Source: an uncultured Alphaproteobacteria bacterium
GTDB taxonomy: Bacteria; Pseudomonadota; Alphaproteobacteria; Caulobacterales; Aquidulcibacteraceae
DNA length: 64,000 bases
Reading direction: 5' to 3'
Assembly (NCBI GenBank): GCA_902826245.1
Contig: CADEEA010000002.1
Span: forward strand, 62,001-126,000
This document shows, piece after piece, positions 12,778-32,446 of this stretch. Position 1 is the first letter of the stretch; each line of letters opens with the position of its first letter. Under the pieces are notes generated by a model. That model made no database searches, was not told the DNA's origin, and worked only from the letters and a program-made list of their open reading frames with translations. A program made the translations under genes and the position numbers.

Positions 12778-14142
12778 ATGGCCAAGGACCACGTCTTCAC
12801 CTGCCAGGCCTGTGGCGCGATCTGGCCCAAATGGGCCGGCAAATGTGAAGCCTGCGGAGAGTGGAATACTCTGGTCGAAGAGAGCGCGCGCGCCGTGGTT
12901 CCTGGAGCGCTTTCAGCGCCCACCGGCAAGAAAAGCAGAGCGCTCACCTTCGTTGAACTCACAGGCGAGCATGATCCCCCCCCGCGCCTCGCCACCGGCA
13001 TTTCCGAACTCGACCGTGTCTGCGGCGGCGGTTTGGTGGCGGCGTCGGCGATCCTGATCGGCGGCGATCCCGGCGTCGGCAAATCCACCCTGCTGTTGCA
13101 GGCCGCCGCCGCCCTCGCACGAGGCGGTGCGCGCGTCGCCTACGTCACCGGTGAGGAAGCGGAGGCGCAGGTGCAAGAGCGGGCGCGCCGCCTAGGCGCC
13201 GCTGACGCACCGGTACAGCTCGCCGCGGAAACCGATCTGCGCAAGATTCTCGAAGGCCTCAAATCACTGAAACCCGACGTCGTCATCGTCGATTCCATCC
13301 AGACCGTCTGGGCAGATGGCGTTGAGGCGGCGCCCGGCACCGTAGCGCAAGTGCGCGCCTGCGCGCACGAATTGGTGCGTTACGCCAAAAAGAGCGGCGC
13401 GGTGCTGATCCTGGTGGGCCATGTCACCAAGGACGGACAAATCGCAGGCCCGCGCGTGGTCGAGCATCTCGTCGATGCTGTGATCTATTTCGAAGGCGAA
13501 CGCGGCATGCCGTTCCGCATCCTGCGCGCGGTGAAAAACCGCTTCGGCCCCACCGACGAGATCGGCGTGTTCGAGATGGTCGAGCAAGGCTTGGTGGAGA
13601 CGCCCAATCCTTCCGCACTGTTCCTTGGCGCCAGCGGCGAGCGCGCTTCGGGAGCGGCGGTGTTCGCGGGCGTCGAGGGATCGCGCCCGGTGCTGGTGGA
13701 AATCCAGGCGCTCGCGGCGCCCAGCGCCTATGGCACGCCGCGGCGCGCGATCGTGGGCTGGGATTCCGCACGGCTCGCGATGATCCTCGCCGTACTGGAG
13801 ACGCGCTGCGGGCTCTCTTTCTCGGGGCGCGATGTTTATCTCTCAGTGGCTGGCGGCCTGCGCATCACCGAACCGGCGGCCGACCTCGCGGTCGCCGCCG
13901 CCTTGATCTCAGCGCTCGCGGATGTGCCGCTGCCGAAGCAATGCGTCGCCTTCGGCGAAGTTGCGCTCTCAGGCGAAGTGCGCTCCGCCGGACGCAGCGA
14001 TTTGCGTCTGAAGGAAGCCGCCAAGCTCGGCTTCACCGACGCCTTCGCGCCCCCGCAAAAGAAAGGCGCAGCCAGCGCCGGCGTAAAGGTGCGCGCGATC
14101 GCGCATATCAACGAACTGGCGGCGGCGATTGCGGGGAAGTGA
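12778..14142 (+). CDS. radA: DNA repair protein RadA
   Basis: RadA (Sms) is a RecA-like ATPase that helps process recombination intermediates. The 454-aa product has an N-terminal C4 zinc motif (CQAC at residues 9-12 and CEAC at 23-26), Walker A GDPGVGKST near residue 96, the RadA-specific KNRFG motif (VKNRFGPTDEIG) and a C-terminal Lon-protease-like domain (GRDVYLSVAGGLRITEPAAD). The length is normal. In many alphaproteobacteria radA is followed by cvpA-purF; here it is followed by a non-coding gap and a glycan locus. Confidence 0.96.
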   Translation: MAKDHVFTCQACGAIWPKWAGKCEACGEWNTLVEESARAVVPGALSAPTGKKSRALTFVELTGEHDPPPRLATGISELDRVCGGGLVAASAILIGGDPGVGKSTLLLQAAAALARGGARVAYVTGEEAEAQVQERARRLGAADAPVQLAAETDLRKILEGLKSLKPDVVIVDSIQTVWADGVEAAPGTVAQVRACAHELVRYAKKSGAVLILVGHVTKDGQIAGPRVVEHLVDAVIYFEGERGMPFRILRAVKNRFGPTDEIGVFEMVEQGLVETPNPSALFLGASGERASGAAVFAGVEGSRPVLVEIQALAAPSAYGTPRRAIVGWDSARLAMILAVLETRCGLSFSGRDVYLSVAGGLRITEPAADLAVAAALISALADVPLPKQCVAFGEVALSGEVRSAGRSDLRLKEAAKLGFTDAFAPPQKKGAASAGVKVRAIAHINELAAAIAGK

Positions 14143-14567
14143 AATGGCCGGAGCGGCGACACTCGAACCCACGCCGCCCAGTCACCCAGATGTGTAGGCG
14201 GTTCTGAAAGCAGAACCGGGTGAGTTCGAGAAATGGGACCGGCGAGACTCCGCCGGTTCACGGACGTTCCAACGGCAATCGATGACCGACATTTCCACGG
14301 GCGACGCAGGCGGCGGCGCAGTTGGAGCGATACGACGCCGCATTGATCGCCGCCTGCCCCGATTGTGTTAAATATCCGGCGCTGGCCGAACGCGCGCGTT
14401 GGTGGTCCATACGCGAAACGCGTGCGCGCGCAGGCGCCATATCTGGGAAAATTGTTCCCGCATGACGGCGGGCCTTAGATCACAACGCTGTAATTTAGGC
14501 GGTGGGGGAATAATCTGCCTCGCCAGCCGTAATACAAGTGTCACAGAACTTTCATTCCGAGGCGCGT
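14143..14567. other. Non-coding gap between radA and the glycan locus
   Basis: No gene is supported in these 425 bp. The left part holds a tRNA-3'-end-like stretch on the minus strand (GGGTTCGAGT at 14161-14170, reading on to CTCCGGCCA ending near 14146). It also holds a perfect hairpin of GGTTCTG and CAGAACC (14200-14217). The stretch does not fold into a complete tRNA. A short inverted repeat (GGGAA at 14445-14449, TTCCC at 14455-14459) lies about 110 bp before the first glycan gene. The promoter of that locus must be in this region, but I cannot place it with confidence. Confidence 0.5.
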
Positions 14568-15806
14568 ATGACGCGAGTGCTGGTCTATTCTCACGATACG
14601 TTCGGCCTGGGCAACATCCGCCGCATGCTGGCGATATCGCAGGCGCTGACCGAGGCTGACCCCGATGTGTCCGTGCTGATCCTCTCCGGATCGCCGATGC
14701 TGCACGCCTTCCGCATGCCCCCGCGCATCGACTACGTGAAGCTCCCGTGCCTGGCCCGCGATACGGATGGAGTCTACGGGGTCAAGTTCCTCAATCTCGA
14801 CTACGCGACGGCGCTGCGGCTTCGCTCGAGCCTGATCGTCAGCGCCGCGATCGAGTTCGCGCCGGATGTGGTTCTGATCGACAAAAAACCGCTTGGCGTC
14901 GATGGTGAGTTGGAGGCGGCGCTCGATCTGCTAGCCGGGCAAGAGCGCAGGCCCAGCATCTACTTGGTGCTGCGCGATATTCTTGACGATCCCGAAGTGA
15001 CCCGACGCATCTGGGATAAGCACGATTATCACGGCGCCATCGCCAAGCATTATGACGGCGTGTTGGTCGCCGGCTGCCCGAGCGTGTTCGATGTCTCCGA
15101 GGAATATGCGTTCCCGGCGGATACGCGCGCAATCACCGAGCACGTAGGATATCTGCATCGCCACGCTGGCCGGCAGACCCGCGAAGAGGTTCGCGCGAAC
15201 TTCAATCTTGACGGGCTGCCTCTGGTGCTCGTGCATGCGGGCGGCGGTGGCGACGGCGCGCCGCTGATCGAAGCCTTCATCGAGGGTCTGCGCGCGCGCG
15301 AAGGTCGTGCGCCGTTCTACAGCTGGATCATCAGCGGGCCGGAAATGCGCGCCAGCGACCGCGAACGCTTGAGCGCGTGCGCGGCCGCGTTGCCGCACGT
15401 GCGCTTCGACGACTTCACCGACGACATGTCCAGTTGCATGGCGGGAGCGGACGCGGTGGTTTCGATGGGCGGCTACAACACCGTGTGCGAGGTGCTTTCG
15501 CTGAAAAAGCCGGCGCTGATCGTGCCGCGCAGCCGCCCAGTCAAGGAGCAAGCCATGCGCGCCATTCGCATGGCCAAGCAAGGCTACATCGCCTGCATGC
15601 TCGATAGCGAGGTGACCAGCGACGGACTTATCACCGCAGCCATGCGACTGACGATGAACGGCGACGCTCAGGTGCGCGCACGTCGCACGCTCCCGTTCCA
15701 CGGCCTCAATCGCATCGCCGAGATCGTCTGCCAGCAAGCACAGCTGCGGCCGGCGTTGGACAAGTGTCCCGCTGACCGGCGCCGCACAGTCGCGGCGGTG
15801 CTATGA
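14568..15806 (+). CDS. GT28/MurG-like glycosyltransferase
   Basis: The 412-aa product has the two-domain GT-B shape of MurG-like transferases. Its N-terminus VLVYSHDTFGLGNIRRMLAI matches the glycine-rich acceptor loop, and VSMGGYNTVCEVLSLKKPA followed by VPRSRPVKEQAMRA matches the nucleotide-sugar-binding C domain. It is the first gene of a nine-gene overlapping locus. ATG 14568 with an upstream GAGG is the likely start; a GTG 30 bp earlier is possible. A relative lies at 24428-25609. Donor and acceptor sugars are unknown. Confidence 0.82.
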   Translation: MTRVLVYSHDTFGLGNIRRMLAISQALTEADPDVSVLILSGSPMLHAFRMPPRIDYVKLPCLARDTDGVYGVKFLNLDYATALRLRSSLIVSAAIEFAPDVVLIDKKPLGVDGELEAALDLLAGQERRPSIYLVLRDILDDPEVTRRIWDKHDYHGAIAKHYDGVLVAGCPSVFDVSEEYAFPADTRAITEHVGYLHRHAGRQTREEVRANFNLDGLPLVLVHAGGGGDGAPLIEAFIEGLRAREGRAPFYSWIISGPEMRASDRERLSACAAALPHVRFDDFTDDMSSCMAGADAVVSMGGYNTVCEVLSLKKPALIVPRSRPVKEQAMRAIRMAKQGYIACMLDSEVTSDGLITAAMRLTMNGDAQVRARRTLPFHGLNRIAEIVCQQAQLRPALDKCPADRRRTVAAVL

Positions 15807-18307
15807 GCGAGCGGCCCGTCGCCATTCTAGTCAAGCGCTTCCCGAAACTCTCAGAAACCTTCATACTCAACGAAGTTTTGGGCTTGGAAGCGCTGGGGCG
15901 TTCGCTGCGCGTCTTTGCGCTGGAGCAGGCATCCGACGACATAGTCAATGGCGCGTTCAAGCGTGTTCGCGCGCCAGTCGAATTGCTCAGCCATGCAAGC
16001 GTCGGCGATTGGTTTTACGTACTAGCGCGGCGACCTCAGCATCTCGTGCGCGGCATCAACGCAGCGCTCGCGGAGTTTGGCGTACGCGACTGGCGGGCGG
16101 TTTCGCAGGCTGTGGCGCTGTCGGCGCGGCTGTTGCGCTCCAGAGCGGGCCATCTGCACGCCCATTTCGCCGACCGTCCCGCCGCCATTGCGCGGGTCGC
16201 CGCAGCGTTCGCAGGCCTGCCGTTCTCGATCTCGGCGCACGCCAAGGATATTTATTTGGCGCAGCGCGAGCCCCTGGCGCGGCGCCTTAGTGCAGCGCGT
16301 TTCACGGTGACCTGCACCGGTTACAATGCGCAATTCCTGCGAGTGCTTGCACCGCAAGCCTGTGTGGTGCGCGCCTATCATGGCGTCGATCTCGACGCGC
16401 TGTCGGGCGAAAGATCTCCGGCAGCGCCCCCGCCTTTGATCCTGAGTGTGGGGCGTCTGCGCGAAAAGAAGGGGTTCGATACCCTGATAGCGGCGTGCGG
16501 GCTGCTGGTGGACGCCGGACGACCCTTTGTTTGCGAGATTATTGGCTACGGCCCCGAAGAAGCGGCTCTGCAGCGCCAAATCGAGGAGGCCGGACTTGCC
16601 CACAGCGTGCGCCTCCGCGGGAAGCTGCCGCATGAGGACGTCATCGCGGCGATGCGGCGCGCTCGGGTGTTCGCACTGCCGTGCCGGGTGCTTGACGATG
16701 GCGATCGCGATGGCATCCCCAATGTTATTCTCGAAGCCATGGCCGTGGGGCTGCCAGTGGTTTCGACGCGGATCTCTGGCGTTCCTGAGGTGGTGACTGA
16801 GAACGAGAGCGGGCTGCTGATTGAACCCGATGATGCTCAAGACCTCGCAAATGCTCTCACCCGTATCCTTGACGACGATGCTATGGCTGCACGTCTCGGC
16901 GCGGCGGGGCGCTATGTGGTGGAAACCCGCTTTTCGCTCGATGGCGACATCAAGCGCCTCGACGCCCTGTTGGGCGCGAGCTTGCGTAATGACCTGCCCG
17001 CACCCACCACGGCCTACATCCTGAAGGGCTTTCCCCGTCTTTCCGAGAGCTTCATCTCGAACGAGATCCGCATTTTGGAAAGCATGGGCGCGGGGATCGA
17101 TATCTATGCGATCAAGCGAGGCGATGAACTGGGCGCGGCGGCGCTCTCCGAGATTCGCGCGTCGATCACCTATCTGCCGGCGATGACTTCTATTTCAGGT
17201 GTTCAGCTCGAACGTTGGCTCATCCAGAACTTGCCGGCTTATTTCGGCGCCTGTGCGAGCTTGGCGCTGCGCGCGCCGCGCGCCTTTTTTACCACAACAG
17301 CTCGCGCCATCTCGATGATGCGGGCGTACAAGGATGGCCAATCAGGCGCGCCGCGCAAAGTGTTCATCAAGGAATTCCTGCAAGCCGCTTACATCGCTGC
17401 GCACATCAGAAAGCGCGGGCGCGCCCGGCACTTGCATGGGCATTTCTGCCACGGCGCGACCACGGTGACGCAATTTGTCGGCGATCTCTGCGGCGTGCCC
17501 TACAGCTTTACCGCGCATGCTAAGGACATTTACGAGGCCAAGCACAATCCTGGCGACCTTTTGCCTAGAAAGCTCGCCGGCGCGCGCTTTGCCGTGACCT
17601 GCACCGAAGCCAATCGCACGCATCTCCTGGAGAAGGGCTGCGAGTGCGGCGGCCTGCACACGATCTATCACGGCCTCGACACCGAACTGTTTTCGCCGCG
17701 CGCCGGCGCCCGCACTGGCGGCGGCCCGCCCGTTGTGCTGTCGGTGGGCAGGTTCGTGGAAAAAAAGGGCTTCCTCGATCTGATCGAGGCGTGCTCGATC
17801 CTGCGCCAGCGCGGGGTTTCGTTTCTCTGCCGCATCGTCGGCGAGGAGGGCGAAGCCGGTGCGGCGATGCGCGCGCTGATCGCCCGCGAAGGGCTTGAAG
17901 AGGTCGTGGCGCTGTTGCCCCCGGCGCCGCAGCGCGCGTTGCGCGGCATTTATGCGGATGCCGACATCTTCGCGCTACCCTGCCGGATCACCGCCAGCGG
18001 CGATCGCGACGGCATTCCCAATGTGCTCGCCGAGGCCATGGCGATGGAGCTTCCACTGGTCACCACTGACGTGTCGGGTATTCTCGAACTGGTCAGCGAC
18101 GGCGTGAACGGGATGGTGGTCAAGCCTGGTGACGCCGCCGCACTCGCTGCCGCGTTGGAGGATTTGATCCTGGCCCCGCCGGGCCGCCGCTTGGCGCTCG
18201 GCCGTGCAGCGCGCGCGACCATCCTGGAGCGTTTCGACTCGCACAAAACCACGCGCGCGCTCAAGGCGTTGCTCGACGATGCCCTCGCCGCGAGCGAGGT
18301 CGCCTGA
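15803..18307 (+). CDS. Tandem (double) GT4 glycosyltransferase fusion
   Basis: The 834-aa product is two complete GT4-type glycosyltransferases joined head to tail. Each half starts alike (LVKRFPKLSETFILNEV near residue 9; LKGFPRLSESFISNEI near residue 407) and repeats SAHAKDIY or TAHAKDIY. Each then has SVGR followed by EKKGF, and GDRDGIPNV followed by EAMA, the nucleotide-sugar-binding region. The halves have clearly diverged, so they may add two different sugars in sequence. The gene is coupled to the upstream GT28 gene (ATGA) and the downstream lyase gene (TGATG). Chain order and substrates are unknown. Confidence 0.88.
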   Translation: MSERPVAILVKRFPKLSETFILNEVLGLEALGRSLRVFALEQASDDIVNGAFKRVRAPVELLSHASVGDWFYVLARRPQHLVRGINAALAEFGVRDWRAVSQAVALSARLLRSRAGHLHAHFADRPAAIARVAAAFAGLPFSISAHAKDIYLAQREPLARRLSAARFTVTCTGYNAQFLRVLAPQACVVRAYHGVDLDALSGERSPAAPPPLILSVGRLREKKGFDTLIAACGLLVDAGRPFVCEIIGYGPEEAALQRQIEEAGLAHSVRLRGKLPHEDVIAAMRRARVFALPCRVLDDGDRDGIPNVILEAMAVGLPVVSTRISGVPEVVTENESGLLIEPDDAQDLANALTRILDDDAMAARLGAAGRYVVETRFSLDGDIKRLDALLGASLRNDLPAPTTAYILKGFPRLSESFISNEIRILESMGAGIDIYAIKRGDELGAAALSEIRASITYLPAMTSISGVQLERWLIQNLPAYFGACASLALRAPRAFFTTTARAISMMRAYKDGQSGAPRKVFIKEFLQAAYIAAHIRKRGRARHLHGHFCHGATTVTQFVGDLCGVPYSFTAHAKDIYEAKHNPGDLLPRKLAGARFAVTCTEANRTHLLEKGCECGGLHTIYHGLDTELFSPRAGARTGGGPPVVLSVGRFVEKKGFLDLIEACSILRQRGVSFLCRIVGEEGEAGAAMRALIAREGLEEVVALLPPAPQRALRGIYADADIFALPCRITASGDRDGIPNVLAEAMAMELPLVTTDVSGILELVSDGVNGMVVKPGDAAALAAALEDLILAPPGRRLALGRAARATILERFDSHKTTRALKALLDDALAASEVA

Positions 18308-20202
18308 TGCATGCGCGCGCCGTCACCGCGCCTCTGCCGGAGCACGATTGCGTCTTCGCGCCCGCGTTCGCGCGCCTTTCAGATGAAGCGTTGTTGGCGC
18401 ATTTTCGCGTGCGTCAGCGCCCGTTCCTGTTCGTGGTAGAAGAGCCGGAGGAGATAACTCCCGAAAAGATCGCCGGCATTATGGGCGGTGTCTTCACTTT
18501 CAACGGCGAAACCCATGCTCTGGGTCATGCCTTCGATTGGCGTATAAACCCGTCCGCCGATCAGGAATGGCACATTCTGCTGCACAAATTCTATTACGCC
18601 GTCGGCTTGGCGCGCACTCTCGAGGCCACGGGCAAGGGGGAATACCTTCACCGCTGGCAGGCGCTTACCGCCTCCTGGATCGCCCAGCGCATCCCCGCGG
18701 ACTTCATCGCCGCCGACGTTACCGGCCGGCGGTTGCAGAATTGGGTTTATGCCTGGAGCATCTTCGTTCGCTCGCCGCTGCTGTCTGCCGGCTTTCACCG
18801 TGACTTGCTGATCTCGCTGCATCGGCAAACCGAGGTGCTCCTGGGCAATCTGCACAAGGCGCGCAACCACCGTACTTTGGAGCTCTACGCGATTTTCCTG
18901 GTCGCGACGGCGTTCCCAGAATTCACCGAAGCGAGCCGCTGGCGCGCGTTCGCGCTTGCGGAGTTGGAAGCAAACGCGGTCGCTGACTTTCAGGCCGATG
19001 GCGGCCATTGCGAGCAATCCACGCATTACCATTGCATCGTGCTACGCAATTTTCTGAATGTCGTGCGCCTGGCGAAGCTGAACGGCATTCCTCTGTCTGC
19101 GAATTTTGAGAATGTTCTGCGACACGCGCTTTTGTTCGGCGCGTGGATGCACCGGCCCGACGGCGAGATCCCTGCTCTGAGCGACGCCGATGGCGGCTCT
19201 TATCTTCCGCTCCTGAGCGAGGGTGCGCGGCTACTGGGATGTGAGGCGGCGCTCGCGGCGGCGCACGGTGAGCGATCGGCGCACTTTGCGGAAAGCGGAT
19301 ATGTCGTGCTGCGGAGCTCGGCGCACGCGCCGACGGAAGCACCCGCGGATCGCCGCTATCTTGTGTTCGATGCCGGCCACACCGGGCACGGCAATCATGG
19401 CCATCTCGACGCCCTGTCCATCGAGGCTTACGCCTCTGGCGCTCCAATCGTTGTTGATCCGGGGCGTTACACCTATGCCGAGGAAGGCGAGATCAATTGG
19501 CGCGCGGCGTTTCGGGGCACCGCCGCGCATTCCACCGTCCAGATCGATGGTCGCGACCAGGCCCGCTATGAGCCCGCCGGCCGCAAGTGGAAGATCACCG
19601 GGCCACGCGCGCAGGCGTACGTTCGTGCGTTTGCCTCGGCCGAACGCGCCGATTATGTCCATGGCGAAGTCGCCAGCGCCGAATATGAAGCGCGCCACCA
19701 GCGGCGCATATTCTTTGTCGATGGGTGCTATTGGCTCATCTTCGATACGCTCGCCGCGCCGAGGCGCCACTCATACGATCTGCGTTTCCAGCTGACGCCA
19801 GAGGCGTTGGGCTTGGTGAGCCTGGCTGGTTGCAGCAATCGGTGGGAAGCCACAACCCCACGCGCGCAATTCGCGTGCATCGCCAGTGAAGACATCCGCG
19901 CTGAGATCGAGACAGGTTGGGTGTCGCGACGTTATGGGAGCAAGTGCGAGGCGCCCAGGCTGCTGTTCTCGGCTGAAGCCGCGGATTTCACCTTCGCGAC
20001 TCTGCTGGCCCCGCTTGGGGCGGGTTCGCTGGCGCTTTCAGACTTGGAGCGCGGCGACGGCGCGCTGCGCGCAACCGTGCTTCATGCCGATACGGAAGTG
20101 CTTGACACGCTGATCCTGCGCGAGGACCGCGGCGCTGAAATATGGCGCGTTGGGCGCGATGGGAAACAGCTCCTGCTGCTGCAGACGGGGAGCTGCGCAT
20201 GA
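18307..20202 (+). CDS. Heparinase II/III family polysaccharide lyase
   Basis: The 631-aa product has the alpha/alpha toroid of the heparinase II/III N-terminal domain (roughly residues 60-320) and the beta-sandwich C-terminal domain. In the latter, AGHTGHGNHGHLDALSIEAY near residues 356-375 carries the conserved histidines. Such enzymes cleave uronic-acid polysaccharides by elimination and are often found in exopolysaccharide loci, where they trim or release polymer. No signal peptide is visible, so export would need another route or the enzyme acts inside. It overlaps both neighbours by a few bases. Confidence 0.87.
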   Translation: MHARAVTAPLPEHDCVFAPAFARLSDEALLAHFRVRQRPFLFVVEEPEEITPEKIAGIMGGVFTFNGETHALGHAFDWRINPSADQEWHILLHKFYYAVGLARTLEATGKGEYLHRWQALTASWIAQRIPADFIAADVTGRRLQNWVYAWSIFVRSPLLSAGFHRDLLISLHRQTEVLLGNLHKARNHRTLELYAIFLVATAFPEFTEASRWRAFALAELEANAVADFQADGGHCEQSTHYHCIVLRNFLNVVRLAKLNGIPLSANFENVLRHALLFGAWMHRPDGEIPALSDADGGSYLPLLSEGARLLGCEAALAAAHGERSAHFAESGYVVLRSSAHAPTEAPADRRYLVFDAGHTGHGNHGHLDALSIEAYASGAPIVVDPGRYTYAEEGEINWRAAFRGTAAHSTVQIDGRDQARYEPAGRKWKITGPRAQAYVRAFASAERADYVHGEVASAEYEARHQRRIFFVDGCYWLIFDTLAAPRRHSYDLRFQLTPEALGLVSLAGCSNRWEATTPRAQFACIASEDIRAEIETGWVSRRYGSKCEAPRLLFSAEAADFTFATLLAPLGAGSLALSDLERGDGALRATVLHADTEVLDTLILREDRGAEIWRVGRDGKQLLLLQTGSCA

Positions 20203-21542
20203 TCACCGCCGCCGACCTCTGCGTGGGCGACCCCCTGGGCCCGGCCCTGCTGCAAGCCATGGACCCCGCTGCGTTGCGCGAAGCGTTTCAAGCGGCAATG
20301 CCGCGCGCGTGTGTTGAAACAGCCGAGATCGAGCGGGCGAAATACAAACCGGGAGCAAAGGCGCTGTTGAGCGCGCGGGTGCGTCTTGCGGGCGAGAGCG
20401 CCGCGAGGTTGTTTGCGGTGCGCGTGCTCCCACCAGGAAAAGCGCACGCGCGCTACCAACGTGCTGTCGAGGAAGCGGGTCCCGGCGAAGTATTGTTACT
20501 GGAGAGGATCGGCGCCGTCGGATGGGCGTTTCCAGCCGACCTGCGGATCACGGGACTGCGCTATCTCGCCGACGCCAATTTGTTCGAGCACGCAACTCTG
20601 CCGGAGCTGGCGCAGGCCATTGCGCCAGGCGGGGCCGTCGAGACATGGTCGAGCGAAATCGCCCACTACGCAGCCGAGCAAAGTTGCACGGTGCGCGTGC
20701 GCCTGAGCGGGCGCCTAGCGAGCGGTGAATCGTTCGCGCGCATACTCTACGGCAAGTGCCACGCCACCGGCGAGAGCGGGGGCGCTGTGCAGGCGCTGGC
20801 AGAAATCGGCGCTGCGCTCGACCGTGAGCGGATGCCGACGTGCGGCATTGCGCGCGTGATCCTGGAACAACCACAATTCGGCATCCAGTGGCAGGAGTCC
20901 GCGCCTGGCGTTCAGCTCGAAATGGCGGGATTGTTCGACAGCGCCAGCGGCCTGGACGAGCGCGTAGGCGCCGCGGTCGCCGGCTTGCACGGCATCCCCG
21001 TTAAATTTGACGCGCCGCCCGCCGCCCCCGACCTTGCCAAGCTTGAGCAACGTTTGGCGATTGCGGCAGTGCTGCCTGCTGCGGTGCGCGCGCGCGTGCA
21101 GGCCCTACAGAGCTGGCTAGCGCGCCGCGCGCCGTCGCGGCCACATCACGCCGGTTTACGGCTATGCCACGGAGACCTGCACGCCAAGAACATGTTCGAC
21201 GACGGTGTGCGCATCCATTTCATCGATTTCGACGCTGTGCACATGGCGCCGCCGGAACACGACGCCGCAAGCCTATCAGCGGCGATGACGTATTGGGCCG
21301 CACTACAGGGCCTTCCCTATGACGCTGCCGCCGCCGCTTTCGCGCGTTGGCGCTGCGGCTACGAATCAGCCGGCGGGCGCTTGAATGAAGAGCGCCTTGC
21401 TTGGCTGAGCGTGTATTGCCTGCTGGACGAGCGTCTCTACCGCTGCCTGACCCGGCTGAAGCCGGGCCGACGCGCCATCGCCGAAGCGCTCGTGGTCCAG
21501 GCCGAACGTGTAGTGCAGCGCCGGAGCGGGCGCGATGTCTGA
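20199..21542 (+). CDS. APH-fold phosphotransferase (catalytic residues intact)
   Basis: The 447-aa product resembles the aminoglycoside phosphotransferase/choline kinase superfamily. The catalytic loop LCHGDLHAKN is at about residues 322-331, with catalytic Asp near 326 and metal-binding Asn. The metal-binding IDFDAV follows about 15 residues later. Such kinases phosphorylate small molecules or sugars; given the context a sugar or lipid-linked sugar is plausible, not shown. I start at ATG 20199, which overlaps the lyase stop as ATGA. An earlier in-frame extension lies wholly inside the lyase gene. Confidence 0.8.
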   Translation: MITAADLCVGDPLGPALLQAMDPAALREAFQAAMPRACVETAEIERAKYKPGAKALLSARVRLAGESAARLFAVRVLPPGKAHARYQRAVEEAGPGEVLLLERIGAVGWAFPADLRITGLRYLADANLFEHATLPELAQAIAPGGAVETWSSEIAHYAAEQSCTVRVRLSGRLASGESFARILYGKCHATGESGGAVQALAEIGAALDRERMPTCGIARVILEQPQFGIQWQESAPGVQLEMAGLFDSASGLDERVGAAVAGLHGIPVKFDAPPAAPDLAKLEQRLAIAAVLPAAVRARVQALQSWLARRAPSRPHHAGLRLCHGDLHAKNMFDDGVRIHFIDFDAVHMAPPEHDAASLSAAMTYWAALQGLPYDAAAAAFARWRCGYESAGGRLNEERLAWLSVYCLLDERLYRCLTRLKPGRRAIAEALVVQAERVVQRRSGRDV

Positions 21543-23280
21543 ACGCGGACCTCTCGCACGCGCCGTGCGCCGATTTGGGCCGTACTGGCTCAAATATCCA
21601 TGGCGGATTGCGTTTGCCTATAGTGCTGGCTTGACGGCTGCTGCGTTTACGCTCGCCGCGCCGCTGCCGCTCAAAGTCATCATCGATAATGTGCTCCTGG
21701 GCGCAAATTCGGGGTTCTCGCCGCTGGACGCTTTGAGCCGCGAAATGCAAATTGGAGCGCTTGCGCTCGCCGCCGCACTCATAGCGGTGGCCGCGGCTTC
21801 CGCCTCCGCCGCCGAAAAGGTCGCCAGCGCCCGGCTGCGTGAGCTGATGACGCGCGATTTGCGCGCGGCCAGCCTCGACCACATCTTGGGACTTTCCGTT
21901 TTGCAGCGCCATACAGATCGCAGCGGCGAGTTGGTGTTGCGACTTATCGACGACACCGGCCACATTGCGCGTCTGTTCTGCAAAACCTTCCCGACCATCT
22001 TCCGCTACGCGATCACTGTGCTCCTGACGTTAGCGGCGATGTGGTGGCTGAGCGGCGCGCTCGGGGCGTTGGGTCTTGTCATCGGATTGGCGCTGGTTTG
22101 GCAGATGCGTCGCGCTGCGCCAAAGCTGCAAGAGGCCTCGCGCGCCAAACGCAAGCTGGAGGGCGGCATTGCCGGCTTTGCGCAAGAAGTCCTGCGGGGC
22201 TTGGGCTTCGTGCAGTCGGTCAGCGGCGAGGATGAGGTCCGCTCGCGCTTTGTCGACGTGAACGCCGCGAGCACGGCGGCAGGGGTCAACGAAACCCGCA
22301 CCCAAGTGGCGCTCGAGCGCAGCATGCAGAATGCCAGCGGCGTGGCGGTAGCGGTGCTGGTTGGGTTGGGCGCATTGCTCGTGTTGCGCGGCCAGTTGAG
22401 CCTTGGCGCGCTGACGGTTTGCCTCGCCTATTTGAACCAGCTGCTGAAGCCGGTGGAGAAAATCAACGAACTCGCCGGCGCCGTCACCGGCGCCCTCGCC
22501 CGCGCCGACCGGCTGAGCGATCTGCTGGAGCGGCCCACCGGGCTTGCGGTGAATCCGGACGCTGCCGCACCTGCGCGCGTTCGCGGGGAACTGATGCTGC
22601 GCGCGTGCAGCTTCGCGCATCGTTCCCCCGGGGCGGGCGTGCAGACTGCGCTTTGGGATGCGGAAATAGTCGTGCGCGACGGCGAGTGCGTCGTCATCGA
22701 AGGCCCCAGCGGCGCGGGGAAGAGCACGCTGCTCGGTCTCATCTTGCGCCTGTACGATCCAGAGAACGGCGAACTCTCACTGAGCGGGCGGGCCTATCGG
22801 GATTGGCCGGTGCATGAGCTGCGACGCCAGTTTGCGGTCATGCGCCAAGAGACGCACTTGTTCGCCGGCACGATCCGCGACGCGCTGCAATTTGGCCTCG
22901 GCGCGCGCAGTGATGCGGATTTGCTGCGTGTGCTGAGCCGCGTCGCGCTTGGCGATCTCGTGGCTGACGCGCCCGCCGGCCTGGATACCCCGCTGGGAGA
23001 AGACGCGGGGAACCTTTCTGGCGGACAGCGCGCACGGCTGGCTCTGGCGCGCGCGCTGTTGGCGCAACGCCCGGTGCTGTTGCTCGACGAGCCCTTCGCG
23101 AACATCGATCCAGAATCGCGCGCTGTGCTCATCGATGCGCTGGGCGAGGAGCGTGGTGTCAGAACCATGCTGATCGTGACCCACCAGTCGCTGCCGCCCG
23201 GCTTTGCGGACCGGACGCTGCGTCTAGAAGCGGGCCGCTTGACGGAAGAGGTCCCAACCCTGCTGCGAGTCGCGCCATGA
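21535..23280 (+). CDS. One-chain ABC exporter (transmembrane plus ATPase)
   Basis: The 581-aa half-transporter has an N-terminal six-helix domain (about residues 20-300) and a C-terminal ATPase. Walker A is GPSGAGKST, the signature LSGGQRARLALARAL, Walker B VLLLDEPFANID and the switch histidine lies in IVTHQS. It works as a homodimer, like MsbA or the lipid-linked oligosaccharide flippase PglK. In this locus it is the only inner-membrane export component, so it probably moves a lipid-linked glycan or glycolipid to the periplasm. It overlaps the kinase genes on both sides. Confidence 0.9.
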   Translation: MSERGPLARAVRRFGPYWLKYPWRIAFAYSAGLTAAAFTLAAPLPLKVIIDNVLLGANSGFSPLDALSREMQIGALALAAALIAVAAASASAAEKVASARLRELMTRDLRAASLDHILGLSVLQRHTDRSGELVLRLIDDTGHIARLFCKTFPTIFRYAITVLLTLAAMWWLSGALGALGLVIGLALVWQMRRAAPKLQEASRAKRKLEGGIAGFAQEVLRGLGFVQSVSGEDEVRSRFVDVNAASTAAGVNETRTQVALERSMQNASGVAVAVLVGLGALLVLRGQLSLGALTVCLAYLNQLLKPVEKINELAGAVTGALARADRLSDLLERPTGLAVNPDAAAPARVRGELMLRACSFAHRSPGAGVQTALWDAEIVVRDGECVVIEGPSGAGKSTLLGLILRLYDPENGELSLSGRAYRDWPVHELRRQFAVMRQETHLFAGTIRDALQFGLGARSDADLLRVLSRVALGDLVADAPAGLDTPLGEDAGNLSGGQRARLALARALLAQRPVLLLDEPFANIDPESRAVLIDALGEERGVRTMLIVTHQSLPPGFADRTLRLEAGRLTEEVPTLLRVAP

Positions 23281-24431
23281 GCCTTGCCCCGCTCACGCGC
23301 GAAGCATACTTGAATGCGGCGATCGCGCGCTTGCAAGCCGATGACCCCATACCGGCGTTGCTCGGGCGCGCGCCCTGGAGACGGACCTACGGTCGCCTCA
23401 GTCCGCGCGCCTCGCGTTACGCAACGTTGGTTTATGAGCGCCCAGGATCGCGGCCTGTACGCGTCGACCTATGCGAGCGTGGGGACACAGGGCTGCATCG
23501 CCTCCCCGGCGCCCTCGGATGGGCGGAGTTGACGCCGTGTAGCGCCGACCCCGCACTACCCACACTCGATGAGGCTTGCGGCCACTACGCCATAGATAAG
23601 ATCGTGCGTTATCGGCCTGGCAAACGCTGCACCATGCGTGGAGCGATCAGCGGCGCGCCGGCATACATAAAGGTGTTCGCCGACGACCGCGGCGCTGAGG
23701 TGGCCAAAGAGGCAGCGCTCTTGCACGCCGCCGCCGCCGAGGGTCAACTCGGATTTGCGGTCGGTCGATGCCTGGAGTGGAACAGCGGCCTTCGCGCTAT
23801 CGCGCATGAAAAGCTCGACGGCGTCTCGATTTGCGATGCACTGATGAGCGACCGCGGCGCCGACCTTGCGGCTCAGCTGGGGCGGGCGCTAGCGACGCTG
23901 TCCAACACGGCGCTGAAGCCGCGCCAAATCTACGATGCGGCAAACCAGATGGAGCGGAGCAGACGCTATGCGCGCAAGCTAGCGCAGGCGGCGCCGGGCG
24001 CCGAGGATGCGGCCGCTGCTTTGCTGGCCGCGCTTGAAGCGGCGCATGAAGCCGCGCCCGACACCAAGCTGCGACCCATTCACGGCGCGCCGCACCCGCA
24101 GCAATGGCTGCAGCATGATGATCGGCTTGCTTTGGTTGACTTCGACAGGCTCTCGCTGGGGCCGGTGGAAATCGACGCTGCAACATTCCTCGCCGAACTC
24201 GATTTTGAAGCTGGCGACCGCGAGCAGATGCAACAGGTCGCCGCCGCGTTTCTCAGTGCTTACGTGGAGGGCGTCGGCGGTTGCGACCCGCGCGTGCTTG
24301 CGATCTATCGCATGCACAAGCACCTCGCCAAAGCCTACAAGGTCGCGCTCTCGCTGAGCGCCGCGCGCGAAATGCGCGCTACGCGAATTCTTTTGAACGC
24401 CCATACCGAGCTTACCGGAGCGATGCAATGA
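23277..24431 (+). CDS. APH-fold pseudokinase-like protein
   Basis: The 384-aa product has the APH fold, but the catalytic loop that normally reads HGDxxxxN reads IHGAPHPQQWL at about residues 268-278. The catalytic Asp is Ala271 and the metal-binding Asn is Gln. The second metal motif is kept (LALVDFDRLS). This suggests lost or altered kinase activity, perhaps a binding or regulatory role beside the intact kinase at 20199-21542. The reading frame is undamaged and coupled to the ABC exporter (ATGA) and the next glycosyltransferase (ATGA), which argues against decay. Confidence 0.75.
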   Translation: MSLAPLTREAYLNAAIARLQADDPIPALLGRAPWRRTYGRLSPRASRYATLVYERPGSRPVRVDLCERGDTGLHRLPGALGWAELTPCSADPALPTLDEACGHYAIDKIVRYRPGKRCTMRGAISGAPAYIKVFADDRGAEVAKEAALLHAAAAEGQLGFAVGRCLEWNSGLRAIAHEKLDGVSICDALMSDRGADLAAQLGRALATLSNTALKPRQIYDAANQMERSRRYARKLAQAAPGAEDAAAALLAALEAAHEAAPDTKLRPIHGAPHPQQWLQHDDRLALVDFDRLSLGPVEIDAATFLAELDFEAGDREQMQQVAAAFLSAYVEGVGGCDPRVLAIYRMHKHLAKAYKVALSLSAAREMRATRILLNAHTELTGAMQ

Positions 24432-25609
24432 AGCCGGTCCTCTATCTTTATTGTCAGCATTCGGTTGGCATGGGCCATTTCGTGCGCTCGCTTGCGCTTG
24501 CGCGCGTATTGGCGGAGTGGTTCGAAATCCATTTTCTCAACGGTGGGCGATCGCCGCCGGGATTCAATCTGCCTGACACAATAAGTTTTCATCACCTCTC
24601 GCCGCTCGGCATGGGCAAGGAATCGCAACTCACCAGCCTGGATGAGAGCGTCAGCGTCGAAGAAGCCAAGAAACTGCGCCTTGCTGCGATCCGCAACCTG
24701 ATCGCACTATCCCCGCCCGATCTGGTTCTGACCGAACTCTATCCGTTTGGGCGAAAAAAATTCGCCTTCGAACTGGAGCCGCTCATTCAGGCCGCGCGCA
24801 ATTGCGGCGCGGCCATTGTTTGTAGTGTGCGCGATTTGCTGGTTTCCGATCGCCCCGACCAGCAGCGGCATGACGACCGCACGGCGCAGAAGCTCAACGC
24901 CGAATTCGACGCCGTGATCGTCCACGCCGACCCTCGCTTCGCGCGGCTGGAGGAATCGTTTAAGCCTCTGAGGCCGCCGCGGACGCGGGTTCATTATTCC
25001 GGCTTTGTGGTTCCCCATGAGGTTCGTCGGCAGGCAGCGGCGCGGGAGCGCCGCGTTCTGATTTCAGCGGGCGGCGGGCTTGTCGGCGGCGCGCTGTTCC
25101 GGACCGCTTTGGCGTTTCACCACTCCAATTTTGCCCGCACAGGGCGGCCCATGACCATTGTCGCCGGACCGTTTCTGCCCGAGTCCGAATGGAGCGCGCT
25201 GCGGGCAAGCGGCGCCGGCGTTGACGGGCTTACGCTCGAGCGATCTGTCCCCGACCTGTGCGCGCTGATGTGCGCGGCGACGCATTCAATCAGCCAGTGC
25301 GGCTACAATACCGCGATCGACATCCTAGTCAGCGGTGTCTCAGCGCTCGTGGTTCCTTACGCGACCGAGAAAGAAAATGAGCAGACGGTGCGCGCCGAGC
25401 GCCTGGCGGCGATGGGTCGCATTGGCGTGCTGCAAGAACGCGACCTCTCAGCGGATGCGCTCGGACAAGCGCTCGAGCGCATCCCGGTCGGGAGCGCTGC
25501 CGGCCAGAATCTGGCGCTCGACGGCGCGCGGGAGACAGCACGCATCCTGGACGACCTCTTGATCGGCAGGAAACGCGGTCGCACTCGCGCCTGGAGCGGT
25601 GTGGCATGA
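24428..25609 (+). CDS. GT28/MurG-like glycosyltransferase (second)
   Basis: The 393-aa product begins LYLYCQHSVGMGHFVRSLALA, the glycine-rich loop of GT28 enzymes. Its C domain holds VLISAGGGLVGG, then SISQCGYNTAIDILVSGVSA and PYATEKENEQTVRAERL, a nucleotide-sugar-binding pattern close to that of the first gene of the locus (14568-15806). I start at ATG 24428, overlapping the preceding stop as ATGA; the frame is open upstream inside the previous gene. The two GT28 enzymes bracket the locus core and may act on related substrates. Confidence 0.84.
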   Translation: MKPVLYLYCQHSVGMGHFVRSLALARVLAEWFEIHFLNGGRSPPGFNLPDTISFHHLSPLGMGKESQLTSLDESVSVEEAKKLRLAAIRNLIALSPPDLVLTELYPFGRKKFAFELEPLIQAARNCGAAIVCSVRDLLVSDRPDQQRHDDRTAQKLNAEFDAVIVHADPRFARLEESFKPLRPPRTRVHYSGFVVPHEVRRQAAARERRVLISAGGGLVGGALFRTALAFHHSNFARTGRPMTIVAGPFLPESEWSALRASGAGVDGLTLERSVPDLCALMCAATHSISQCGYNTAIDILVSGVSALVVPYATEKENEQTVRAERLAAMGRIGVLQERDLSADALGQALERIPVGSAAGQNLALDGARETARILDDLLIGRKRGRTRAWSGVA

Positions 25610-26364
25610 GCGATTGGCTGGTCCCCCTTCGAGTGGCGCTTGCGGAGAGGCGCGCGCCGCTTGAGTTCTTTGTCCGTGACGACGACGCCGGTCGCGCCGA
25701 TGCCCAGCTGTTTCGCCTACTAGACGTGTTCGAGAGCCGCGCCGCGCCGCTCGATCTCGCTGTGATACCGGCGGCTTTGCAGCCGCAAACCGCGGAGGCG
25801 CTGCGCCTACGGCGCGCGCGCTGGAGGGGACTCAATTTTCACCAACACGGCTATGCCCATGTCAATCATGAGCGCGAAGGGCGTAAGTGCGAATTCGGGC
25901 CCACGCGGGGTCTCGCGCGTCAGCAGGCCGACATCCGTATGGGCAAGGATCGGCTCGCCGCGTTGCTGGGCGACATCGATCCGATTTTTACCCCGCCCTG
26001 GAATCGCTGCACGCAAGAAACCGTGTCCGCATTGAAGCGTGAAGGCTTCCGCGCGCTCTCGCGTGAGGCGAAGGCAGCGCCGCTTGCGCTGCAGGACCTG
26101 TATTCCTTGCCTGTGAGTGTTGATTGGCGGCGCCAGCGCGGGGGAGTGCGCGAGCCCCCACGCGATGCGGCGGCGGCCCTGGCCGAGCAGGTCGCCGCGG
26201 GCGCGGCGAGGGTGGGATTGATGTTGCACCACCAGGTTCTCGACGACGAGGACTTCGATGCGCTCGACGCACTGCTAACTCGTCTGCGTTCGGCGCCCAA
26301 TGTGCGCCTCAGCTCAATGATGGAATTTGTGGAGGAACAGAATGTCTCACTCATCGGCGCTTAG
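25606..26364 (+). CDS. Polysaccharide deacetylase-like (CE4/NodB) protein
   Basis: The 252-aa product resembles NodB-type deacetylases that remove N-acetyl groups from glycans. It has the acidic run FFVRDDDAGRAD near residues 21-32, the metal-binding-like FHQHGYAHVNHE near residue 79, the TPPWNR loop and a late LMLHHQVL histidine. No signal peptide is visible, so it may act in the cytoplasm. It overlaps the upstream GT28 gene as ATGA and the channel gene downstream by 23 bp. Loss or retention of activity cannot be judged from sequence alone. Confidence 0.78.
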   Translation: MSDWLVPLRVALAERRAPLEFFVRDDDAGRADAQLFRLLDVFESRAAPLDLAVIPAALQPQTAEALRLRRARWRGLNFHQHGYAHVNHEREGRKCEFGPTRGLARQQADIRMGKDRLAALLGDIDPIFTPPWNRCTQETVSALKREGFRALSREAKAAPLALQDLYSLPVSVDWRRQRGGVREPPRDAAAALAEQVAAGAARVGLMLHHQVLDDEDFDALDALLTRLRSAPNVRLSSMMEFVEEQNVSLIGA

Positions 26365-27856
26365 GCGCTTTGGATACTCGACAGCGGCGCTGGCCGCGCT
26401 TTTGCTGGCGGCGGCGCAACCGGCGCATGCGCAGGAGGAGAGCACCGATCGCGGCGGCGACAGTGTGCTCCAGGTGGATGACGTGCGCTCACTCGCCCGC
26501 CAGCTTGGCGTGTCGCTCGACGACAACCGTCCAGAGGATCAATTCGAGACGACAATGTTCGGGCGCCCGCTTATCGTCGGCGGCGAACTCGAAGCCGCCG
26601 GCCAGTGGCGCGACAACCTCGATCTCACCGGCGAGGACGGCGTCGGCAAACTCACGCCCGAGGCGCAGCTCGAATTCCTCTATCTGTTTTCCGACCGGCT
26701 AATCGCCTTTGCCGAGGTGAAGGCGTTCGTGGATTCCGAAGTGTGGACCGAGACCGGCGATGGGGAGAGCGATGCAGGGCTCGATCTGCGCGAGGCATGG
26801 GTGCTGGCGCCGCGCCTGTTCGGCAGCGATTTCTCGCTCCAGGTCGGGCGTCAGCAATATCAGGATCGCCGCGAGTGGTGGTGGAACGAAAACCTCGATT
26901 CGGTGCGGTTGCACTATGTGCAGGGGCGCTTCACCGCCTTCCTCGGCGTCGCTGAAGCGCAGCTCCGCACCTCCACGCTGGAGGACATCAGCCCGGAGGA
27001 CGAGGATGTGACCCGTTACTTGGGCAACGCCGCATTCACCTGGACGCGTCACGATCGGCTCGAAGCATTTCTGCTGTCGCAGCAAGACCACTCGGGCGCG
27101 CCTGCGATCAATGCGGTGCTGGATGAGGACAGTCAGGACGAAGCTGACTCAGACCTCACCTGGGTGGGTCTGCGCGCGCGCACGCGCCAGAGCATTGGCG
27201 ATGCAGGAAAAGTCTTCCTCAGCGGCGATCTTGCGATGGTCGACGGCGATGAAACCGTCACCGAGTTCGCGGATTTCGCGCCGGGCCAAATCCAGGCCGT
27301 GGACCGCTTCAGCCAAGACGTGTCGGGTTGGGCCGCCGATGTGAGCGTCAGTTGGGAAGTGCCGATCGACTTGGAGCCCGTCGCCAGCATCGCTTTCGCC
27401 TATGGGTCTGGCGACGACACGCCAAGCAATGGCAGCGACGATTCTTTCCGGCAAACCGGTCTGCAGGGCGACAACGGCAAATTCCGCGGCATCAGCCGTT
27501 TCCGCTATTACGGCGAAACGCTGCGCCCGGAATTGTCCAATCTGCGCGTGCTGACCCTTTCGCTCGGCTCGCCGGCGCCCGCGCCAGGTGAGGGCGAGGC
27601 CTGGATCGAAGCGGTGTTCCACAATTACGCGCAAGCCGAGGCGTCGACCGATTTTCGCAGCGAGCGGCTCGATGTCGGTCCCAACGGCGTCGATGAACAT
27701 CTGGGCGACGCCCTGGATGTCATCTACTCGTTCGAAAGCGGGCGGCGCTGGGAATTCGAAGCCACGCTCGGCTCATTCCGTTACGGCGACGCCTTCGGCG
27801 CCAACCGCGGCGAATGGGCCTACAGCGCCTCGTTCAAGCTGGACTACAATTTCTAG
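26342..27856 (+). CDS. AlgE-like outer-membrane polysaccharide channel
   Basis: The 504-aa product has a signal peptide ending AQPAHAQ and many alternating beta strands with short acidic turns, ending in the aromatic strand SASFKLDYNF typical of outer-membrane barrels. The pattern (ALDVIYSFESGRRWEFEATLGSFRYGDAF) matches the alginate-export porin family. It probably conducts the locus product across the outer membrane. ATG 26342 is chosen because GGAGG lies 6 nt upstream, within the preceding gene. It is the last gene of the locus; a 444-bp gap follows. Confidence 0.85.
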   Translation: MSHSSALRRFGYSTAALAALLLAAAQPAHAQEESTDRGGDSVLQVDDVRSLARQLGVSLDDNRPEDQFETTMFGRPLIVGGELEAAGQWRDNLDLTGEDGVGKLTPEAQLEFLYLFSDRLIAFAEVKAFVDSEVWTETGDGESDAGLDLREAWVLAPRLFGSDFSLQVGRQQYQDRREWWWNENLDSVRLHYVQGRFTAFLGVAEAQLRTSTLEDISPEDEDVTRYLGNAAFTWTRHDRLEAFLLSQQDHSGAPAINAVLDEDSQDEADSDLTWVGLRARTRQSIGDAGKVFLSGDLAMVDGDETVTEFADFAPGQIQAVDRFSQDVSGWAADVSVSWEVPIDLEPVASIAFAYGSGDDTPSNGSDDSFRQTGLQGDNGKFRGISRFRYYGETLRPELSNLRVLTLSLGSPAPAPGEGEAWIEAVFHNYAQAEASTDFRSERLDVGPNGVDEHLGDALDVIYSFESGRRWEFEATLGSFRYGDAFGANRGEWAYSASFKLDYNF

Positions 27857-28300
27857 AGCGCCGTCCAGTGTAGCGGGGTCATCCGCCGATGAGCCGCGTG
27901 GACTTGTAGGGCCTACAGCAAGTCGTTCTGCTCGCTGTGACGTACTGCAAATATGCTTTGTCATTTGTAGTCGACAGTCCTCAAGGGATGAATGGGTGTT
28001 CGCTGAACTAGATTGGCTGTTGCACCACAAGCGTCGGACGATTGTGGTGCAACCAGACGATGCTGCTCCGGCGAGGGTGCATCCGGGGTTGGGATTGGGG
28101 CGAGTGAATCCTCTCTGTGGCCACTTTGGGCCATCACCCCTCTCCCAGGTTGAGCACGCCTCGGCGGTATCTCAATACCGTCACGCGACTGCCCGCTGGC
28201 GCAAAGCGGTCCTTCGGGAGTTCGTCGCGTAGCTCTGCAAAAAGTGTCGAATTGCTATAGTCTTTCCGGCGGCGCCATTGGCGCAAGCCGGAGAAGCGGG
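27857..28300. other. Non-coding gap after the glycan locus
   Basis: No gene is supported in these 444 bp. The gap holds a palindrome of TGTAGG and CCTACA (27905-27917) about 50 bp after the channel gene and the 12-bp inverted repeat listed separately. The transcript end of the glycan locus and the promoter of the RTX gene must be here. No intrinsic terminator with a T run is seen. Confidence 0.5.
28019..28053. promoter_or_regulatory. Perfect 12-bp inverted repeat (operator or hairpin)
   Basis: GTTGCACCACAA (28019-28030) is matched exactly by TTGTGGTGCAAC (28042-28053) across an 11-bp spacer. It lies about 250 bp before the RTX protease start. With an arm-centre distance of 23 bp (about two helical turns) it could bind a dimeric regulator; as RNA it would form a stable hairpin. 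No T run follows, so it is not a usual terminator. Confidence 0.45.
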
Positions 28301-31732: not shown

Positions 31733-31769
31733 TTGATTTTGGCCATGACATAGCTATAATATAGCTATG
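31733..31769 (+). promoter_or_regulatory. vapBC promoter and palindromic operator (leaderless)
   Basis: A -35 TTGATT (31733-31738), 16-bp spacer and perfect -10 TATAAT (31755-31760) lie exactly 6 nt before ATG 31767, so the transcript should begin at or next to the start codon. CATAGCTATA (31749-31758) and TATAGCTATG (31760-31769) form a perfect inverted repeat covering the -10 box and start codon. This is a likely site for autorepression by the antitoxin. Confidence 0.75.
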
Positions 31770-32039
31770 AAGGATGTAGCCCTCTTTGACGCCAAAAACC
31801 GGCTCTCCGCTCTGGTGCAAGAGGTGATCGATACCGGTGAGGATATCGTCATCACCCGGCATGGCCAGCCAGCGGTGCGGCTGACGCGCGTGACCTCTCG
31901 GCCAAGCGGGCAGGAATGGCAGGCGGCGATGGCCGAGCTGGACAGGCTCAACGCCGATTTCGTGAAGCGTCATCCTCTGGCTGGCGAACGGATCGCTTGG
32001 GAGACGTTGAAGGCGCAACTCGACGATAAGCCAGCGTGA
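31767..32039 (+). CDS. VapB-type antitoxin (Phd/YefM family)
   Basis: The 90-aa product starts MKDVALFDAKNRLSALVQEV and continues IVITRHGQPAVRLTRV, the DNA-binding N domain of Phd/YefM antitoxins. The C-terminal half is charged and probably disordered until it wraps the toxin. There is no ribosome-binding site, which agrees with the predicted leaderless transcript. Its TGA overlaps the toxin GTG start, so the pair is coupled. The module is inserted between rplY and pth on the opposite strand. Confidence 0.9.
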   Translation: MKDVALFDAKNRLSALVQEVIDTGEDIVITRHGQPAVRLTRVTSRPSGQEWQAAMAELDRLNADFVKRHPLAGERIAWETLKAQLDDKPA

Positions 32040-32446
32040 GTTTGGTCATTGATGCGTCAGCGGCGTTGGCGTGGCTGGCGCCGTCGCAAGCGACGCCGGC
32101 GGCGCTCGCTCTGCGCAGCGCACTACCCGAGAATTTAGCGGCGCCCTCGGTTTTCCCCGCAGAGGTCCGCAACGCCTTGATCAAGCTGGAACGCCGCGGC
32201 CTGGTTGACCCCGATGTGGCGCGGCGAGGACTGGTCTTGCTGGACGCCGTCATTGTGACGTCGTCGCCGCCGGAGATGCGCGAACTCGCGAGCATCTACG
32301 CGTTGGCGCAGGCTGAACAGATCAGCTTTTTCGACGCGTGCTACCTTGCCCTTGCCATCAGCGCTCGCGCTCCACTGGCGACGCGCGACGCTGGTCTTAT
32401 CGGCGCTTGCATACGGCGCGGCGCGCAATTGTGCGATCTTCGCTGA
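32036..32446 (+). CDS. VapC-type PIN-domain toxin
   Basis: The 136-aa product is a PIN ribonuclease. It has the first acidic residue in VIDASAALAW, glutamate in VFPAEVRNAL, aspartate in FFDACYLALA and a final aspartate in ATRDAGL. These four residues bind the metal used for RNA cleavage. The start is GTG at 32036, overlapping the antitoxin stop as GTGA. No damage is visible, so the toxin is probably active and held in check by the adjacent antitoxin. The RNA target is unknown. Confidence 0.9.
   Translation: MSLVIDASAALAWLAPSQATPAALALRSALPENLAAPSVFPAEVRNALIKLERRGLVDPDVARRGLVLLDAVIVTSSPPEMRELASIYALAQAEQISFFDACYLALAISARAPLATRDAGLIGACIRRGAQLCDLR

Follow-up and report, generated by a model that had tools for sequence, protein, structure and literature searches.

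A nine-gene cassette at positions 14568-27856 of a 64,000-nucleotide stretch of DNA (the window) from an uncultured alphaproteobacterium of the Aquidulcibacteraceae (contig CADEEA010000002.1, positions 62,001 to 126,000) is genuine and conserved, and its predicted function is that of a glycan pathway in which an MsbA-type exporter is coupled with an AlgE-type channel; no description of it was found in the literature searched. While the parts are already known, their combination and the switch that accompanies the diderm envelope are new. The cassette is, on balance, rather more probably than otherwise a dedicated pathway in which a chain that likely contains uronic acid and amino sugar is assembled and modified in the cytoplasm, exported by its own ATP-binding cassette (ABC) protein and, in diderms, released through an AlgE-type barrel.

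The genes (g1 to g9) are all on the plus strand and begin with ATG at the first of the positions given for each. Three encode glycosyltransferases: g1 (14568-15806; GT28-type, MurG/MJ1255-like, PF04101 E 2.4e-13), g2 (15803-18307; a fused double GT4 enzyme with two PF00534 stretches, E 3e-72, and a top NCBIfam match to EpsE of 330 bits, under the cut-off of 400) and g7 (24428-25609; GT28-like, with a weak PF04101 match of 26.5 bits against a cut-off of 22). Predicted tailoring enzymes are g3 (18307-20202; a heparinase II/III-fold lyase or epimerase with N-terminal PF16889 and C-terminal PF07940 domains) and g8 (25606-26364; a CE4-like deacetylase of the DUF2334 family, by PF10096 and motifs). 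The APH-fold proteins are g4 (20199-21542; PF01636), a predicted sugar kinase with an intact HGDxHxxN motif, and g6 (23277-24431; by Pfam APH, motif and model), a probable pseudokinase in which HGAPHxxQWL replaces HGD. Transport is represented by g5 (21535-23280; PF00664 and PF00005), a one-chain ABC exporter of MsbA-type fold, and g9 (26342-27856, the last stop ending at 27856; PF13372, Alginate_exp, 81 bits), an AlgE-type outer-membrane beta-barrel with a signal-like segment at the N-terminus and Phe at the C-terminus. The coordinates confirm the original prediction of nine consecutive plus-strand genes that overlap at every junction (the eight overlaps being 4, 1, 4, 8, 4, 4, 4 and 23 nucleotides), and Pfam supports the families named in it, with the correction that no catalytic Asp is present in the second APH-fold protein. 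A feature beyond that prediction is the decayed 3' remnant (~156 bp) of a uridine diphosphate (UDP)-glucose dehydrogenase gene just upstream of g1 (14309-14465, plus strand; detected by tblastn and at the start of the blastn block).

The cassette is set off from its surroundings. Window positions 14309-27862 align by blastn with locus L043 of a congener (genome G409) at 86.7% identity over 13.6 kb, with the same nine genes, while the remainder of the congener contig stretches (L043, L044) has no blastn match anywhere in the window. Thus, the cassette is a real, discrete unit. Of 30 genomes searched within the genus, several of them incomplete, three carry the g6 family, the window's own genome among them; across the phylum, the family is matched at E <1e-30 in three of 398 sampled genomes, a number that rises to seven at E 0.001 or better. 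The cassette is an accessory unit that has moved location.

Related gene sets were collected by a GTDB genome scan with a g6 alignment (23 loci) and were mapped with profiles built from the loci, with the addition of stretches from four sampled phyla and annotated plasmids. Loci with at least three core genes were retained (44 related loci), which excluded 31 others below that number; short duplicates were left out, and L003 and L043, which are on the same contig, were counted once. The 44 loci include two of one assembly (L006 and L009) and four near relatives (L058, L060, L061 and L102). At least six phyla are represented: Pseudomonadota, Myxococcota, Nitrospirota, Acidobacteriota, Chloroflexota and Actinomycetota. 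Orthologues of g5 are the most frequent (37 of 44 loci), followed by those of g1 (29), g7 (21), g8 (19), g3 (15) and g9 (14); the g4 profile matches APH proteins in 34 loci and the g6 profile in 17. A full type, similar to the window and carrying at least two of g3, g7 and g8, accounts for 20 of the 44 loci and occurs in all six phyla; the remaining loci are of a smaller type composed of g1, GT4 genes, g5 and APH proteins. Most loci of the six-phylum comparison have a pair of separate GT4 genes in place of the fused g2, which is shared by L016 and L043, both alphaproteobacterial; in L012, g1 and g5 stand back to back with g6. Stretches with a g6 match carry at least three core genes in 6 of 7 cases in Acidobacteriota, 12 of 15 in Actinomycetota and 3 of 12 in Chloroflexota. 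Other phyla have much the same gene set, so the cassette is more than chance, and the possibility that it is peculiar to this genome was rejected. The "unfamiliar composition" of the original prediction holds in part: no description of the gene set was found in the open-access papers searched (one may exist in print elsewhere), but the set is not unique. A near-full cassette, including its own alginate export family protein, is carried by a 37-kb Candidatus Manganitrophus plasmid of the Nitrospirota (L059, CP114557.1), in which radical SAM and phosphatase genes are inserted and the ABC exporter is annotated as two adjacent genes.

The exporter g5 is of one chain, with membrane and ATPase domains together, and so differs from the two-gene KpsM/KpsT arrangement; KpsD/KpsE-type partners are absent from the nine genes. 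Its top NCBIfam matches are the MsbA-type models TIGR02204 (262.7 bits) and TIGR02203 (261.6 bits), with scores well short of the cut-offs. Assignment of g5 as the housekeeping MsbA was rejected, as proteins of contigs C4 and C29 score 495.8 and 387 bits compared to 261.1 bits for g5; the MsbA cut-off (602 bits) is reached neither by g5 nor by any other protein of the genome. The g9 protein belongs with the AlgE-type barrels by its PF13372 match and by fold: the 17 best PDB matches of its model (predicted local distance difference test, pLDDT, 66.2; predicted template modeling score, pTM, 0.70) are all AlgE (E 1.0e-24 to 4.6e-20), and a search with g9 as a single sequence against solved structures found nothing. 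When the diderm or monoderm state is assigned by phylum, from general knowledge, the barrel is present in 14 of 24 diderm-phylum loci and 0 of 20 monoderm-phylum loci (Fisher p 3.4e-5); among full-type loci only, the counts are 11 of 16 and 0 of 4. Such a diderm-only distribution is as expected of an outer-membrane step. In the acidobacterial L019, a DUF5916 protein (13022-15316, plus strand) occupies the place of the barrel and is a possible replacement channel.

The same exporter could serve a different end, in which a short glycan on a lipid carrier is flipped by a PglK/MsbA-like g5, after which enzymes encoded elsewhere would transfer it to lipid or protein or extend it, with g9 as an accessory channel. 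MsbA-type models are the best matches of g5, if far under the cut-offs, and GT28 enzymes of the MurG kind use lipid-linked acceptors. However, the nine genes include no initiating sugar-phosphate transferase, ligase or Wzy, and the AlgE-type barrel of the 14 diderm-phylum loci is better suited to a free chain; a lipid-linked oligosaccharide is accordingly judged unlikely, if worth keeping in view.

A uronic acid is likely to be part of the cassette product, given the UDP-glucose dehydrogenase genes of related loci, the remnant in the window and the heparinase II/III fold of g3. In L043, the cassette begins with an intact UDP-glucose dehydrogenase gene (Pfam UDPG_MGDP_dh) directly upstream of g1, and the window remnant matches the C-terminal end of this dehydrogenase (tblastn E 2e-10), interrupted by gaps and an in-frame stop. 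The window's genome encodes two further members of the UDP-glucose dehydrogenase family on contig C1, both over the Pfam cut-off. Of the 44 loci, 13 carry the dehydrogenase (eight of diderm and five of monoderm phyla), including L016 and L042, from which two of the dehydrogenase queries were taken and which therefore match by construction. One more is present in L040, a stretch neighboring L039, and a sugar epimerase-type protein is found in 6 of the 44 loci. The deacetylase-like g8 suggests, in turn, that the product contains an N-acetyl amino sugar.

The assignment of g3 to the heparinase II/III group is based on its domains, on matches to heparinase III proteins in a solved-structure search and on residues of active-site type: N-H-R-T and Tyr-His motifs, which are present in 13 of 13 aligned relatives and presumably correspond to the Asn/His and Tyr active-site residues of heparinase II/III. 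A second heparinase II/III protein is encoded elsewhere in the same genome (G000:C28:30601-31350, L001). In g8, the Asp-Asp, His, PPWN and His-His motifs are found in 19 aligned relatives with small changes (RDDD to RADD in one relative and RNDD in one), and include the metal-binding Asp/His motif of CE4-like enzymes. By hydropathy, no signal peptide or clear membrane segment is detected in g1-g4 or g6-g8, while g5 has many membrane segments and g9 a hydrophobic N-terminal segment. Because g3 and g8 have no recognizable export signal, they would act before export, and tailoring would precede export in an order opposite to that of alginate. A predicted cytoplasmic heparinase-fold protein could be a C5-epimerase or a lyase for trimming or proofreading.

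A lyase-fold protein and kinases that lack export signals would also be in place for the uptake and salvage of uronic acid oligosaccharides, in which the barrel imports, the lyase cleaves and the kinases phosphorylate; moreover, Alginate_exp barrels need not all export. Such a role is very improbable for a locus with four glycosyltransferase modules, an ABC protein of exporter type and no substrate-binding protein. Synthesis is favored instead, because of the four glycosyltransferase modules and the lack of an import-type binding protein.

The kinase-like proteins diverge at the catalytic motif. The H, G, D, H and N of HGDxHxxN are present in 18 of 18 close relatives of g4, and the g4 of the window also has the downstream metal-binding Asp (IDFD), as in active APH kinases. 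The g6 protein is related to g4 along most of its length (hhalign probability 99.4%), and its AlphaFold model (mean pLDDT 95.8) is matched by Foldseek to maltokinase, glucosamine kinase and other APH-fold kinases. The HGA of g6 aligns to HGD in five PDB chains, which are of maltokinase, glucosamine kinase and APH VIII. Relatives of g6 were collected in a shared-word protein search that listed 120 of its 170 matches, all but one of which cover the HGD position. Among the matches listed, the catalytic Asp of HGD is present in 0 of 119 (Ala in 101, Ser in 16 and Thr in two), Lys132 is present in 120 of 120, and Gln276, Asp288 and Asp290 are present in 119 of 119; the GTDB locus scan included HGAPHxxQWL among its three patterns, and counts of the g6 motif among those loci are thus biased. 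As the catalytic Asp is missing while the Lys and the D-F-D motif are invariant, g6 is probably a pseudokinase. The best PDB matches of g6 by both sequence and fold, maltokinase and the Streptomyces glucosamine kinase, have an APH fold with an N-terminal cap; by contrast to these kinases, the Asp of HGD is replaced by Ala, Ser or Thr in the g6 relatives among the matches listed. In a tree of 48 cassette APH sequences, the g6 type forms one fully supported branch of 20 members, one of which (Nitrospirota L013) keeps the Asp (HTDLH). An HGA-type protein was not found in the mapped stretches of G246 (L039) or G102 (L041, L042), and a third, HGD-bearing APH type occurs in L039 and several other loci; the g6 pseudokinase is apparently not strictly required in cassettes.

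Histidine phosphatase genes, which perhaps counteract the kinases, accompany 5 of the 44 loci (L005:11017-11709, L010:3510-4436, L059:16736-17446, L011:2161-2859 and, as a weak match of 66 bits, L019:14524-15963). Also linked to cassettes are fusions of a nucleotidyltransferase-like N-terminal part (recognized by eye) to an APH-type kinase (by Pfam for L042), at L042:3110-4723 (minus strand), L009:5999-7672 and L008:2874-4466, which suggest a phospho-alcohol decoration in some relatives.

Phosphatases of this type recall schemes in which a compound is phosphorylated, exported and dephosphorylated, and the APH proteins have sugar and antibiotic kinases as their nearest relatives of solved structure. 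Both points would fit a secondary metabolite (an oligosaccharide or pseudo-sugar), with the APH proteins as kinases for tailoring or self-protection and g5 as a drug-type exporter. This alternative is improbable, as the heparinase II/III-fold protein, the UDP-glucose dehydrogenase and the AlgE-type channel indicate a uronic acid glycan, and no other natural-product enzyme family is represented among the nine genes.

In the favored pathway of glycan synthesis and export, UDP-uronate would be supplied by UDP-glucose dehydrogenase, which is encoded in the cassette of relatives and would here be provided by the two copies elsewhere in the genome in place of the decayed gene. The four glycosyltransferase modules (g1, both halves of g2, and g7) would assemble the chain, g8 is predicted to remove N-acetyl groups, and g3 to cleave or epimerize uronic acid residues. 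The g4 protein would phosphorylate a sugar, either in the chain or in a precursor, while g6 may bind ATP or an intermediate but not transfer phosphoryl groups by means of the usual base, and might regulate g4 or act as its partner. The product would then be carried across the inner membrane by g5 and passed through the outer membrane by g9. The distinct surface-glycan route originally proposed is retained as a glycan locus with its own exporter and channel. Its phosphorylation step is narrowed: the motif of g4 is intact, the description of two kinases was rejected as g6 has no catalytic Asp, and the step is left to g4 alone because g6 lacks the catalytic base.

Several observations weigh against this pathway. 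The cassette encodes no transferase for initiation, no polymerase and no chain-length regulator or lipid-anchor enzyme, and 31 of the 44 loci have no UDP-glucose dehydrogenase, some of them being truncated where a contig ends. Location is only weakly tested by hydropathy, and confidence in the g9 model is no more than moderate. An AlgE-like match is missing from 5 of the 16 full-type diderm loci (L019, L075 and the rhizobial L058, L060 and L061), and 16 of the 20 monoderm loci are of the smaller type without g3, g7 and g8. In addition, 9 of the 12 Chloroflexota stretches with an APH-family match fall outside cassettes, and three full-type loci of Actinomycetota (L014, L015 and L022) have no g1 or g5 in the stretch mapped.

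If the pathway is as proposed, a route of polysaccharide export has been overlooked owing to the generic names of its parts (phosphotransferase, ABC transporter, alginate lyase family). Such a route would represent a compact system of soluble enzymes for uronic-acid glycans that are modified ahead of export, the opposite order to alginate, and would include a kinase-fold family that has lost the catalytic base yet retains nucleotide-binding residues. Because the barrel is confined to diderms, the outer-membrane step lends itself to a direct test.

In the window, the cassette is preceded by RadA (12778-14142) and is directly followed by a serralysin-like M10 protein with 13 repeats-in-toxin (RTX) stretches (28244-31024, plus strand). 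A pair composed of a Phd/YefM antitoxin and a PIN-domain toxin (31767-32446, plus strand) lies between a peptidyl-tRNA hydrolase gene and position 32480. No tRNA was found in the window.

Compared to known pathways, the nine genes include no Wzx, Wzy, polysaccharide co-polymerase (PCP) or Wza by Pfam and NCBIfam, the first three of which were sought among the nine genes and not genome-wide. One Wza-family protein is encoded on the contig of the window ~66 kb from g1, in surroundings that were not inspected; thus, the genome may also have a Wzx/Wzy-type route. The same searches of the nine genes found no processive GT2 synthase, cyclic di-GMP co-polymerase or tetratricopeptide repeat scaffold. 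The original prediction of an MsbA-type one-chain exporter with an AlgE-type channel is borne out by the domains and by the fold matches of g9, as is the lack of PCP, Wza or synthase in the locus. Finding a Wzx/Wzy system or synthase next door was to count against a distinct route; none is present among the nine genes, and the Wza-family protein of the contig is ~66 kb away.

The AlgE-type barrel is common to the cassette and to alginate secretion (Alg8/Alg44/AlgK/AlgE), and a functional parallel extends to deacetylase-like and lyase-like enzymes and to the supply of uronic acid. Unlike the alginate system, the nine genes encode no inner-membrane synthase or AlgK-like protein and have an ABC exporter instead; the lyase and deacetylase-type partners of alginate are periplasmic, whereas the tailoring enzymes of the cassette have no export signals. 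The one-chain exporter fold of g5 is shared with the cyclic glucan exporters NdvA/ChvA and the flippases MsbA/PglK; by contrast to these, g5 scores far under the curated cut-offs and resides among four glycosyltransferase modules, kinases and a barrel.

A rhizobial plasmid cluster of Shinella, Mesorhizobium and Sinorhizobium (L058, L060, L061 and L102; e.g., S. meliloti 1021 pSymB, NC_003078.1, 833621-846983) includes orthologues of g1, GT4, g7 and the g5-type exporter, an orthologue of g8 in three of the four stretches and a dehydrogenase nearby. No orthologue of g3, g4, g6 or g9 was found in it, the exporter is longer (~900 residues) and adjoins a cyclic-nucleotide-binding protein, and the polysaccharide lyase of the S. 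meliloti cluster is of a family different from that of g3. The passages of PMC12239276 and PMC5539429 consulted for related rhizobial genes do not describe the cassette. The S. meliloti msbA2 locus, described as encoding an exporter of a polysaccharide of unknown function, was rejected as the same system, no match being shown.

On the features tested, the cassette is outside the Wzx/Wzy, KpsMT and synthase-dependent classes. Tentatively, and with more doubt than confidence, it may exemplify a fourth general surface-glycan route: a modular pathway of ABC exporter and APH kinase that spans monoderm and diderm phyla, finishes a glycosaminoglycan-like chain with uronic acid in the cytoplasm, where N-deacetylation and epimerization or trimming by the heparinase-fold protein would precede export, pairs a sugar pseudokinase with a sugar kinase that is active, and has or lacks an AlgE-type channel depending on the cell envelope. 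Capsules of the KpsMT/KpsD/E type offer a parallel in cytoplasmic assembly, ABC export and linkage to a dehydrogenase (e.g., K5 heparosan), with the difference that the one-chain MsbA-type exporter and AlgE-type barrel of the cassette replace KpsMT, the PCP and the outer-membrane polysaccharide export (OPX) protein. Of the known systems, ABC-dependent capsule pathways are those that the cassette is predicted to resemble most closely in operation, with an exit of alginate type.

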